64,000 nucleotides of DNA from Rhodococcus marinonascens NBRC 14363 (GTDB lineage Bacteria > Actinomycetota > Actinomycetes > Mycobacteriales > Mycobacteriaceae): assembly GCF_001894885.1 (NCBI RefSeq), contig NZ_BCXB01000010.1, forward strand, positions 62,001 through 126,000. Direction: 5' to 3'. Made by a program: the position numbers and the translations under genes. Below the pieces are notes generated by a model. The model saw nothing but the letters and a program-made list of their open reading frames with translations. It was not told the DNA's origin and did not search any database. Shown here one piece after another: positions 23,706-27,813 of the stretch (its first letter is position 1; each line of letters opens with the position of its first letter).

Positions 23706-23990
23706 TCAGGCGAGCGTGAGGAAGAGCTTCTCGAGTTCTTCCTCGGAGAGCCGGTCGGTGCACGTGCTGTCCTGCTCGTCGAGGACGCATTGACGCAATT
23801 GCGCTGCGACGATCTTGAACCCGGCACGGTGCAGGGCGTGGGAGACCGCGGCGAGTTGCGTGACAACGTCACGGCATTCCCGGCCGGATTCGATCATCGT
23901 GATAACTCCGGCAAGCTGCCCCTGCGCTCGGTGGAGGCGGTTGAGTACCAGCGCGGTCGATTCGGCGGCGTTGGCGGGTTGTGTGGTCAT
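23706..23990 (-). CDS. cstR: CsoR/CstR-family persulfide-sensing repressor
   Basis: A 94-residue helical repressor of the copper-sensor-like CsoR family. Conserved Cys39 (in SGRECRDV) and Cys68 (in AAQLRQCV) are present, but the position four before the second Cys, His in the copper sensor CsoR, is Gln here. That pattern, with rhodanese and persulfide dioxygenase neighbours, fits CstR, which forms a Cys-Cys di- or trisulfide with reactive sulfur species. Last gene of the minus-strand sulfide operon, overlapping the rhodanese gene by 4 nt. Likely represses the TACCC-N4-GGGTA sites at 26281-26500. Confidence 0.82.
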
Positions 23991-24343
23991 TGTCGACCCT
24001 TCTGTTTGGAGTTGTATCCGAGAGTGGATGTGCCGGCAGCGCCGTTCTCGGTGGGATGCCCGGAACGCAGCCACGCACCTGTCCCGCCTGCTACCGAGAC
24101 CGCGCGCCGACCCGCAGCAAGGAGAATGTCGGCACCGTAGAGACTGCGGCTTCCGGACGCGCAGATCACGTACACCATGTTCCCGTCGGGAACCTCGGCG
24201 ACACGGGTACCCAGCTCGCCGAGTGGAATCCACTGCGCACCGGGCACGTGTGCCTGCGCGTACTCGTAATCTTCTCGCACATCCACGACCGGCGCTCCGG
24301 TCTCCCACGCGTCGGCGAAGGTCGGAATATCGACTTCCCGCAT
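23987..24343 (-). CDS. Single-domain rhodanese (sulfurtransferase)
   Basis: A 118-residue rhodanese-like protein. It has the [26 protein letters not shown] half and the active-site loop CASGSRS with the persulfide-forming Cys. It presumably moves sulfane sulfur between persulfide and acceptor thiols in sulfide detoxification. ATG 24343 was chosen because a GGAGAG site precedes it; the frame is open to 24379. It overlaps cstR by 4 nt. Confidence 0.87.
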
Positions 24344-24427
24344 TTTCTCTCCTCGATTCATGCCGGGTCGCCGGCTCACTGTTCTTGATCCGCACCGTTC
24401 GAGGGCACGAGCTCCCCCGTACGAGGA

Positions 24428-24805
24428 CTAGGCGCTCGCGGCGGATGCTTTCTGTTCGGCCAGTTTCGCGTGTACCGCGTTCATGTCGAGGGCCCTGATC
24501 TGGGTGATCAAGTTCTCGAGGGCGGCGGGCGGCAGAGCTCCGGGTTGGGCGTACACGAGCACACCTTCACGGAATGCCATGATCGTGGGAATCGACTGGA
24601 TTCCGAGGGCAGCGCCGAGTTCCTGCTCGGCCTGGGTGTCGACCTTCGCGTGCACGATGTCGGGGTGAGCCTTCGACGACTTGTCGAAAGTCGGGGCGAA
24701 CGCCCGGCACGGACCGCACCACCCAGCCCATAAGTCGACCAACACGATGTCGTGACCAGAGACGGTGGATTCGAAGTCCGCGGCAGTGAGGTTTCTGGTG
24801 GTCAT
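24428..24805 (-). CDS. Thioredoxin
   Basis: A 125-residue thioredoxin with the active site [17 protein letters not shown] (about residues 28-44) and the cis-proline loop SIPTIMAF. A ~20-residue Ala-rich C-terminal extension follows the fold. It sits between the persulfide dioxygenase-rhodanese and the rhodanese gene, so it probably reduces protein persulfides or returns sulfide in this pathway rather than serving as the general thioredoxin (inference from position). Confidence 0.88.
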
Positions 24806-24839
24806 GAGGTGATCCTTTCGGTGATGGTGCCGGAGATGG

Positions 24840-26429: not shown

Positions 26430-26445
26430 ATACCCTAAGGGGTAC
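26430..26445. promoter_or_regulatory. CstR-type operator 3
   Basis: ATACCCTAAGGGGTAC fits TACCC-N4-GGGTA. It lies in the middle of the divergent promoter region, on the sqr side. Confidence 0.72.
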
Positions 26446-26484
26446 TTGACCATTGCGTCTTACGAGGAATACGCTCGTCCGTAA

Positions 26485-26500
26485 ATACCCGGAGGGGTAT
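26485..26500. promoter_or_regulatory. CstR-type operator 4
   Basis: ATACCCGGAGGGGTAT fits TACCC-N4-GGGTA, 55 bp (about five helical turns) from operator 3 and about 100 bp before the sqr ATG. Confidence 0.75.
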
Positions 26501-26595
26501 TAGTAGCGTCGAAGCCGTGATCCCGGGCCCATTCGGATCCGAAAACACGCGGTCGGTCTCGCATCTACACGTCACAAAGACGAACGAGTGTTCTC

Positions 26596-27813
26596 ATGTC
26601 ATCCAACCCAGGAAAATTGGTGTCCCGGTACCGGGTGCTCATCGTCGGGGGCGGCACCGCGGGCATTGCGACAGCGGCACGCCTCAGGCGTGCCGCTGTC
26701 ACGAGCATCGCGGTGCTCGGGCCCTCTGATCGGCACTGGTACCAGCCTCTGTGGACGCTGGTCGGTTCAGGGCAGGCGTGGGTGAAGGAAACCCGGCGCA
26801 TCGAGGCGAAGCTGATCCCGAGCGGTGTCGAGTGGATTCGGGAGGCGGCGACATCGGTCGATCCGGAAGCGCAGACCGTCACCACGGATACAGGGTCCGA
26901 GATCGGCTACGACTATCTGGTGATGGCAACGGGTCTGCGATTGGACTGGAATGGGGTGCCCGGACTGGCGGACTCGGTGGGGCACGGCGCGGTCTCCAGT
27001 AACTATTCCTATGAATATGCGCCCCATACCTGGGAGCTGATCCGCAACATGCGCTCGGGGACAGCGATATTCACCCAGCCCGTCGGACCGATCAAGTGTG
27101 CCGGTGCTCCGCAGAAGATCGCCTACATCGCCTCCGACTACTGGCGCCGGCAGGGAATTCTGGACCAGATCCGGGTGATACTCGTCCTCCCGGGTGACTC
27201 CATGTTCGGCGTTCCCTCCTGGCGGCACGCGCTCGAGGAGATCGTCGAGAGATATGGAATCGAGGTGCGACTCATCTCGGAGATGGTGTCGTTGGACGGG
27301 GCATCTCACAAGGCGACCATCGCCGACCACGCCGCAGGTACCGAGGAAGAACTCGCTTTGGGCATGCTCCACGCCGTCCCGCCGCAGCGAGCTCCGGAAT
27401 GGGTCGCGGAGAGTCCGCTCGCCAATCCGGCCAGCCCCTTCGGATACGCTGAGGTCGACAAGCACACCCTCCAGCATCGCCTGTACCCCAACGTGTTTGC
27501 ACTGGGCGATGTCGCGGACCTGCCCACTTCGAAAACCGGCGCCGCAGTGCGCAAGCAGGCCCCCGTGCTGGTCGCCAACTTGCTCGTGACCATGCGCGGA
27601 TCAGGTGAGCGTAAGAGTTACGACGGCTACTCGTCGTGTCCGTTCGTCACAGCACGGGACAAGATGATGCTTGCCGAGTTCGACTACGATCTGAATCCGG
27701 CACCGAGCTTCCCGGTCATCGACACCACGAAGGACCGCCGCGACATGTGGCTACTCAAGCGCTACGGCCTGCCGGCCATGTACTGGCACGGCATGGTCAA
27801 GGGCAGGGTCTGA
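26596..27813 (+). CDS. sqr: Sulfide:quinone oxidoreductase
   Basis: A 405-residue membrane-associated flavoprotein that oxidises H2S to a persulfide/polysulfide and feeds electrons to menaquinone. The FAD fold VLIVGGGTAGIATAARL is at the N-terminus. Redox Cys candidates are in GPIKCAGAPQK (about residue 168) and in YSSCPFVT near the C-terminus, and ALGDVADLPTSKTGAAVRKQ is the second FAD-binding motif. It is divergent from the persulfide dioxygenase operon and shares its operator-rich promoter region, so sulfide oxidation and persulfide removal should be induced together. Confidence 0.9.
   Translation: MSSNPGKLVSRYRVLIVGGGTAGIATAARLRRAAVTSIAVLGPSDRHWYQPLWTLVGSGQAWVKETRRIEAKLIPSGVEWIREAATSVDPEAQTVTTDTGSEIGYDYLVMATGLRLDWNGVPGLADSVGHGAVSSNYSYEYAPHTWELIRNMRSGTAIFTQPVGPIKCAGAPQKIAYIASDYWRRQGILDQIRVILVLPGDSMFGVPSWRHALEEIVERYGIEVRLISEMVSLDGASHKATIADHAAGTEEELALGMLHAVPPQRAPEWVAESPLANPASPFGYAEVDKHTLQHRLYPNVFALGDVADLPTSKTGAAVRKQAPVLVANLLVTMRGSGERKSYDGYSSCPFVTARDKMMLAEFDYDLNPAPSFPVIDTTKDRRDMWLLKRYGLPAMYWHGMVKGRV

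Follow-up and report, generated by a model that had tools for sequence, protein, structure and literature searches.

The closest published system to the locus described here is the ScCsoR/ScPDO circuit of Streptomyces coelicolor. In the part of that report used here, ScCsoR represses the genes for a persulfide dioxygenase (PDO) and a rhodanese as well as its own promoter, is released by polysulfide, and has two ATACCn6GGTAT binding sites at the promoter of PDO, located at -48 and -9 and 39 bp apart (PMC7533328). The same part separates H2S circuits that contain a sulfide:quinone oxidoreductase (SQR) from self-regulated sulfane-sulfur circuits that lack this enzyme (PMC7533328). For Staphylococcus aureus, the authors suggest, in the part of the paper drawn on here, that one cst operon is the sole direct target of CstR (PMC5480029).

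Here, we analyzed a 64-kb stretch of DNA, referred to as the window, which carries five genes of this kind on two strands. Like the S. coelicolor circuit of ScCsoR, ScPDO, rhodanese and TauE, as far as the part of the report used here describes it, the locus combines a CstR-like repressor with two Cys, PDO and rhodanese genes as predicted targets, and similar operators; however, the S. coelicolor circuit has no SQR and has sites 39 bp apart, whereas the window includes sqr, has cstR as the last gene of the PDO operon, and has sites 20 and 55 bp apart (PMC7533328). Because cstR ends the PDO operon, the window repressor is probably self-regulated, and the locus probably unites SQR with a self-regulated repressor.

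Further likenesses are found in other systems, each taken from part of the respective report. In the S. aureus cst operon (tauE, cstA, cstB, sqr), as predicted for the window, a CstB-type PDO and SQR are placed under CstR (PMC5480029). The yrkD-nreBC-sqr-pdo cluster of Bacillus licheniformis likewise groups a CstR-like repressor with SQR, PDO, rhodanese and thioredoxin, but it comprises 11 genes, TauE among them, and includes a two-component system, NreBC, that acts at sqr and pdo (PMC9918477). TTHA1953 of Thermus thermophilus is also a CsoR-family repressor of sulfur oxidation with a thioredoxin (SoxW) and divergent targets, but it serves the Sox pathway, its operator is TACNNTACNNNNGTANNGTA, and its gene lies far from its targets (PMC10318464).

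On the evidence presented below, we read the locus as an H2S-oxidation island controlled by CstR, in which the repressor would act at the -35 elements of both promoters, would be released by persulfide, and would thus let both arms be induced together; we put the probability of this reading at roughly 0.8. The gene cluster is of a known kind, and its added value lies in the recurring, promoter-specific placement of operators and in a wider regulon; a spacing rule may already have been published.

Gene content of the island

The island extends from position 23706 to position 27813 of the window. On the minus strand, the order of transcription is PDO, thioredoxin, rhodanese, cstR. The first of these genes (24840..26222, minus strand) encodes a protein of 460 aa with an MBL-fold domain (PF00753), followed by a pseudo-rhodanese and a C-terminal rhodanese, which is the domain order of CstB. 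This protein aligned over its full length with 3tp9 (2e-84) and 3r2u (2e-56), the latter of which we take to be S. aureus CstB, and by its architecture it is a CstB-type PDO. The first-pass annotation had described two rhodanese domains; two PF00581 stretches are present, of which, in the sequence and alignments, only one carries the loop Cys (VVHCAGGWRSS). The frame that stays open upstream of the PDO start, to 26453, is taken as chance read-through.

The thioredoxin (24428..24805, minus strand; 125 aa) has a WCGPC active site and scored 79.2 bits with PF00085 and 94.4 bits with TIGR01068, slightly below the cut-off of 96.8 for that model. It is followed by a single-domain rhodanese (23987..24343, minus strand; 118 aa) identified by PF00581 and by matches to rhodaneses in the PDB, and then by the cstR-like repressor gene (23706..23990, minus strand; 94 aa), the start of which overlaps the rhodanese stop (ATGA). 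On the plus strand, sqr (26596..27813; 405 aa; PF07992) encodes an SQR of the human SQOR type, with similarity over the full length: residues 10-403 aligned with human mitochondrial SQOR (6mp5) at an E value of 5e-100, with both redox Cys motifs, KCAGAP and SSCP, in register. For none of the five island proteins did any NCBIfam model reach its cut-off, the model nearest to SQR being a type III SQR (220.9 versus a cut-off of 525), and a search of Rfam at gathering thresholds gave no matches in 20000-34000. The divergent PDO and sqr genes are separated by 373 bp (26223-26595). The five genes, their strands, the two ends of the island and the size of this gap agree with the first-pass annotation.

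In the scheme that we infer for the persulfide chemistry, CstR binding, transcript boundaries and thioredoxin function, SQR would oxidize sulfide to persulfide, the CstB-type PDO would oxidize persulfide to sulfite, and the rhodanese would move sulfane sulfur, while the thioredoxin would probably restore free thiols on enzyme cysteines that have become persulfidated or disulfide-bound. Reduced CstR on operators adjoining each -35 would shut both promoters. Persulfidation of the Cys pair would release CstR from DNA, and therefore both arms and CstR itself would be induced together.

The regulator is probably of the CstR type

The window repressor carries a CsoR/RcnR-family domain (PF02583, 78.6 bits against a threshold of 22.8). 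Its residues at the family's ligand positions are Cys39, Gln64 and Cys68; that is, it has two Cys, with no His at the third copper-ligand position, as expected of CstR. The Cys-His-Cys copper ligand set of CsoR and RicR is thus lacking through the replacement of His by Gln. In contrast, a copper-type paralog of the same genome, the third family member (contig C20), served as a control and has Cys-His-Cys. Among 104 CstR-type matches (tblastn, E <= 1e-8), a partly selected set in that the loci were sampled largely for holding such matches, the position of Gln64 was occupied by Gly in 97, Ser in 4, Asn in 2 and Gln only in the window's own protein, and His was found at the third ligand position in 0 of the 104.

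The same family domain is common to copper sensors, the best NCBIfam match of the regulator is RicR (38.4 bits versus a cut-off of 175), and the sites of CsoR and RicR are similar to that of ScCsoR. These points are compatible with a copper sensor of the CsoR/RicR type, the sulfur genes then belonging to a metal response or a general response to thiol stress. This is highly improbable, because Gln occupies the place of the His ligand, His is never found there in the CstR-type set, and a Cys-His-Cys paralog exists separately; moreover, the 9-kb neighborhood of that paralog (L018) holds no perfect site and only one with one mismatch, and the genes adjoining the operators encode persulfide enzymes. 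The first-pass assignment of the regulator to CstR rather than CsoR is thereby upheld, and the copper sensor was rejected as a candidate on the exchange of His for Gln. The putative operators at promoters of persulfide enzymes, recognized by sequence alone, also agree with CstR. By analogy with its family, above all ScCsoR, the window repressor would sense persulfide.

In four Streptomyces rows of the 104, the first Cys is replaced by Arg or Pro or is unaligned. CstR-like matches with this change lie behind TauE (L196, L199, L204, L210) and are possibly variants without persulfide sensing.

Putative operators and promoters in the divergent gap

Exact TACCC-N4-GGGTA palindromes occur in the gap at 26282, 26431 and 26486 only, and are termed O1 (26282..26295), O3 (26431..26444) and O4 (26486..26499). 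A further site, O2 (26302..26316), is degenerate: in TACCCCATGGGGATA, the arm beside the PDO -35 is intact, and the other has lost its register by a shift of one base, so that the site is 71% identical to the reference copy and has two mismatches if read ungapped. Of the four palindromes claimed at first, three therefore stand as intact, and a set of four intact ones is ruled out. The start-to-start spacings are 20, 129 and 55 bp, which bears out the two pairs with 20- and 55-bp spacing. Over the full 64 kb of the window, five matches with up to one mismatch were found (the three perfect ones here and two imperfect ones elsewhere) against a chance mean of 0.71, and none of 100 shuffled windows reached five.

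The sites fit closely around proposed promoters. For PDO, the proposed -35 (TTGAAT, 26295..26300, minus strand) lies between O2 and O1, and the proposed -10 (CATTCT, 26271..26276, minus strand) follows after an 18-nt spacer that is filled by O1; this hexamer departs from consensus and was placed by the TATGGCAnnCT consensus that follows the second operator in relatives. For sqr, O3 ends one base upstream of the proposed -35 (TTGACC, 26446..26451, plus strand), the proposed -10 (TACGCT, 26470..26475, plus strand) follows after an 18-nt spacer, and O4 begins 10 nt after the -10, at about the predicted start of transcription. Both arms share GGGGTA-C-TTGA, facing outward. A generic sigma-70 scan of 23400-28300 found no promoter, and the -35 and -10 calls therefore rest on conservation. 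The earlier proposal that CstR represses both arms is supported by these predicted operators, one adjoining the -35 of each promoter.

Pair spacings recur in front of sqr and PDO genes of relatives

As proposed in the first-pass annotation, the same pair spacings were sought in related genomes. The sample comprised 80 regions picked among the CstR matches listed, all with E values of 8.3e-18 or better (a few matches of similar strength were omitted), 14 regions around SQR matches, 80 SQR loci kept from 108, three plasmid regions and regions of the same genome. Upstream regions of sqr (>=50% identity) and PDO (>=45% identity) genes were counted when at least 150 nt long, with a match starting no later than residue 40; redundancy was reduced by dropping rows with more than 90% likeness across the 200 nt nearest the gene, and sites were allowed up to one mismatch.

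Among 85 non-redundant sqr upstreams in the sampled loci, at least one site was present in 44, at least two in 34 and none in 41. Pairs 50-57 bp apart were found in 33 of the 85, and 32 of these 33 fell at 54-57 bp; they include Rhodococcus ruber and Rhodococcus aetherivorans (54 bp) and many Streptomyces, and since many Streptomyces rows share ancestry, the spacing counts are not counts of independent events. Among 76 non-redundant PDO upstreams, at least one site was present in 50, at least two in 31 and none in 26. Pairs 20-22 bp apart were found in 23 of the 76, only in Rhodococcus and family relatives, one plasmid included; adjacent sites were also spaced by 31-36 bp in nine cases and by 53, 55 and 56 bp in one case each. 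Among PDO upstreams at >=70% identity, the strict pair was present in 22 and absent in four (L061, L070, L089 and the window). Thus, PDO and sqr genes each have a recurring spacing of their own, and the two genes share no gap in R. ruber and R. aetherivorans, in line with the suggestion that each promoter has its own pair of sites.

In these pairs, the upstream operator is followed within 0-2 nt by TTG in 32 of 33 sqr promoters, window included, and 23 of 23 PDO promoters, against a background of 1.5-2% at any position in those upstreams. At sqr, the -35 reads TTGAC in 25 of 32, and a TANNNT -10 follows after 17-18 nt in 32 of 33, window included (the -10 was searched over ten positions; L198 is the one row without a TTG/TANNNT match). 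The second sqr operator begins 10-12 nt after the -10 in 31 of 32, the exception beginning 5 nt after it. At PDO, the -35 itself makes up the gap between the operators (CTTGACA in 11, CTTGCA in 5, others in 7; n = 23), the spacer between -35 and -10 is taken up by the second operator, and a TATGGCAnnCT-like stretch comes next.

Among operators preceding cstR, only 4 of 81 are followed by TTG, and among those preceding MMPL genes, 4 of 36; TTG is therefore no property of the operator as such. In 20 of the 33 sqr pairs, it also comes after the downstream operator, frequently in the form TTGAGGAGG, and in many Streptomyces rows it runs into a GAGGAGG resembling a ribosome-binding site. Because of these downstream copies, TTG beside an operator is in itself no proof of a -35.

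These data suggest that the 20- and 55-bp spacings probably follow from fitting operators around promoters. At PDO, the operators would flank the -35, with the second one in the spacer (20-22 bp apart); at sqr, they would bracket the whole promoter, one upstream of the -35 and the other just past the -10 (mostly 54-57 bp apart). A period, as first described, is thus probably the wrong picture. Helical phasing for cooperative contacts between CstR molecules could instead set the spacings, given that 20-22 bp is about two turns and 55 bp slightly more than five, and that MMPL pairs lie 31-36 bp apart and only 2 of 9 have TTG adjoining their upstream operator. We consider phasing unlikely as the explanation, as the -35 TTG lies inside the gap in 23 of 23 pairs at 20-22 bp, and the sqr operators enclose a -35 and a TANNNT -10 in 32 of 33. 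The rarity of an adjoining TTG at MMPL pairs does mean that promoter anatomy does not explain every pair. Where promoter anatomy applies, the odd pair spacings become a rule of CstR operator placement that can be tested; the bracket layout of sqr recurs from Rhodococcus to Streptomyces, and other PDO genes have other spacings.

A second type of SQR in Streptomyces, about 30% identical, adds another spacing class: its own operators form pairs 75-78 bp apart (L198:9753/9828, L205:11903/11981, L228:12994/13070).

CstR-type sites elsewhere in the genome

In the 4.92-Mb genome, nine perfect sites were found, three of them in the PDO/sqr gap; the reversed pattern, by comparison, occurred twice. The wider pattern ATACCCN4GGGTAT, with up to one mismatch, occurred in eight places versus one: three in the island, two in an MMPL/DUF302 cluster on contig C22, and one each on contigs C88, C17 and C7. 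The C88 site lies in front of a second CstR gene and the C7 site inside a reading frame. Three perfect sites within listed open reading frames (C7:85028, C15:74290, C26:42963) are probably chance.

The C22 cluster (L015:4129-7374) consists of genes for an MMPL-family transporter and a DUF302 protein, with a perfect CstR-type site near each and a TauE-like gene beside them; homologs adjoin CstR in many sampled relatives. On contig C17, the gene for a second SQR-like flavoprotein (C17:10226-11272; L275:6228-7273) has a site with one mismatch about 42 nt before its ATG. Contig C88 (3.7 kb; L017) carries the second CstR (67%) with a perfect operator, adjoining a DUF302 and an MMPL gene; the latter matches in three separate pieces and is therefore probably broken or poorly assembled.

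In the sampled loci, sites were found before MMPL genes in 20 of 39 upstreams and before DUF302 genes in 10 of 36. These counts suggest that the CstR regulon extends to MMPL and DUF302 genes, which are likely members of the persulfide response in actinobacteria. Compared with the single cst operon of S. aureus, as given in the part of that report used here, several scattered promoters carry sites in this genome, those of MMPL and DUF302 genes included (PMC5480029). Within the literature collection searched, no paper joined CstR and DUF302, and the three papers that combine "sulfane sulfur" with MMPL look unrelated from their titles and the beginnings of their abstracts.

The second CstR on C88 may bind the same predicted sites as the window CstR. 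Its ligand-position residues are the common Cys-Gly-Cys, its gene is preceded by a perfect operator, and Gln in place of Gly is confined to the window's own protein among the 104 matches; the second CstR could thus be the main repressor of these sites, and the window CstR could have drifted in sensing or specificity. We find this improbable: R. ruber (81%) and R. aetherivorans (80%) have close relatives of the window CstR, the gene of which appears to be cotranscribed with PDO, and C88 is a contig of only 3.7 kb with an MMPL gene matching in pieces.

More tentatively, and with some doubt on our part, actinobacterial CstR might read a shared module of operator and -35, with the place of the second operator (in the spacer at PDO, at the start site at sqr) setting the induction of each gene, and with MMPL and DUF302 genes in the regulon. 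If so, PDO and SQR would have different persulfide thresholds, and the cell could therefore time the removal of persulfide against its making; MMPL-family transporters and DUF302 proteins would be unrecognized parts of the persulfide response.

Thioredoxin and origin of the island

The thioredoxin had been regarded as an unusual addition. This view did not hold, in that a thioredoxin gene adjoins PDO in 7 of 24 non-redundant loci including the window (6 of 23 others), and one is also present in the yrkD cluster of B. licheniformis, as described in part of that report (PMC9918477). The divergent PDO/sqr pair of the window type was found in the window only, in 1 of the 24 non-redundant PDO loci sampled.

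In the draft genome of R. ruber, comparable units are dispersed. Contig C22 of R. ruber has a 79% identical PDO with a 21-bp pair, diverging from a CstR gene (75%), and contig C41 has a 90% PDO piece, also with a 21-bp pair, that is ended by the contig after 152 residues. On contig C10, the closest CstR (81%) follows a 74% rhodanese and another rhodanese-like match and precedes DUF302; a pair of sites 19 bp apart lies in front of this unit. On contig C34, sqr (82%) has a 54-bp pair and an upstream region without PDO. R. aetherivorans has similar rhodanese, CstR (80%) and sqr (81%, 54-bp pair) units, with CstR beside rhodanese and DUF302, and PDO pieces that end at contig ends. The PDO genes or pieces of both species carry 21-bp pairs; since they lie at contig ends, the genes downstream of them are out of view.

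Given that R. ruber has these units on different contigs, the island looks as if units regulated by CstR had been joined. We infer from these comparisons that it is best read as such units joined together with their own operators, which suggests that a sulfide-oxidation island was assembled from units retaining their operators. A divergent arrangement also occurs on a plasmid of Rhodococcus sp. BH4 (L265), where the PDO opposite sqr is more distant (37%); the two genes point in the same direction in one family relative (L175) and in many Streptomyces. Rhodococcus plasmids carry homologous PDO, CstR and MMPL genes, and in a plasmid search no record covered 80% of 23600-28000. Two of these plasmids (L264, L265) have clusters of PDO, SQR-like, CstR and MMPL genes beside a GntR-family gene, rhodanese and TauE.

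Beyond the island, at 31446-32455 on the plus strand of the window, lies a transposase of the IS605 OrfB/TnpB type that is split over two frames, with OrfB_IS605 in one frame and a Cas12f1-like TNB domain in the other.
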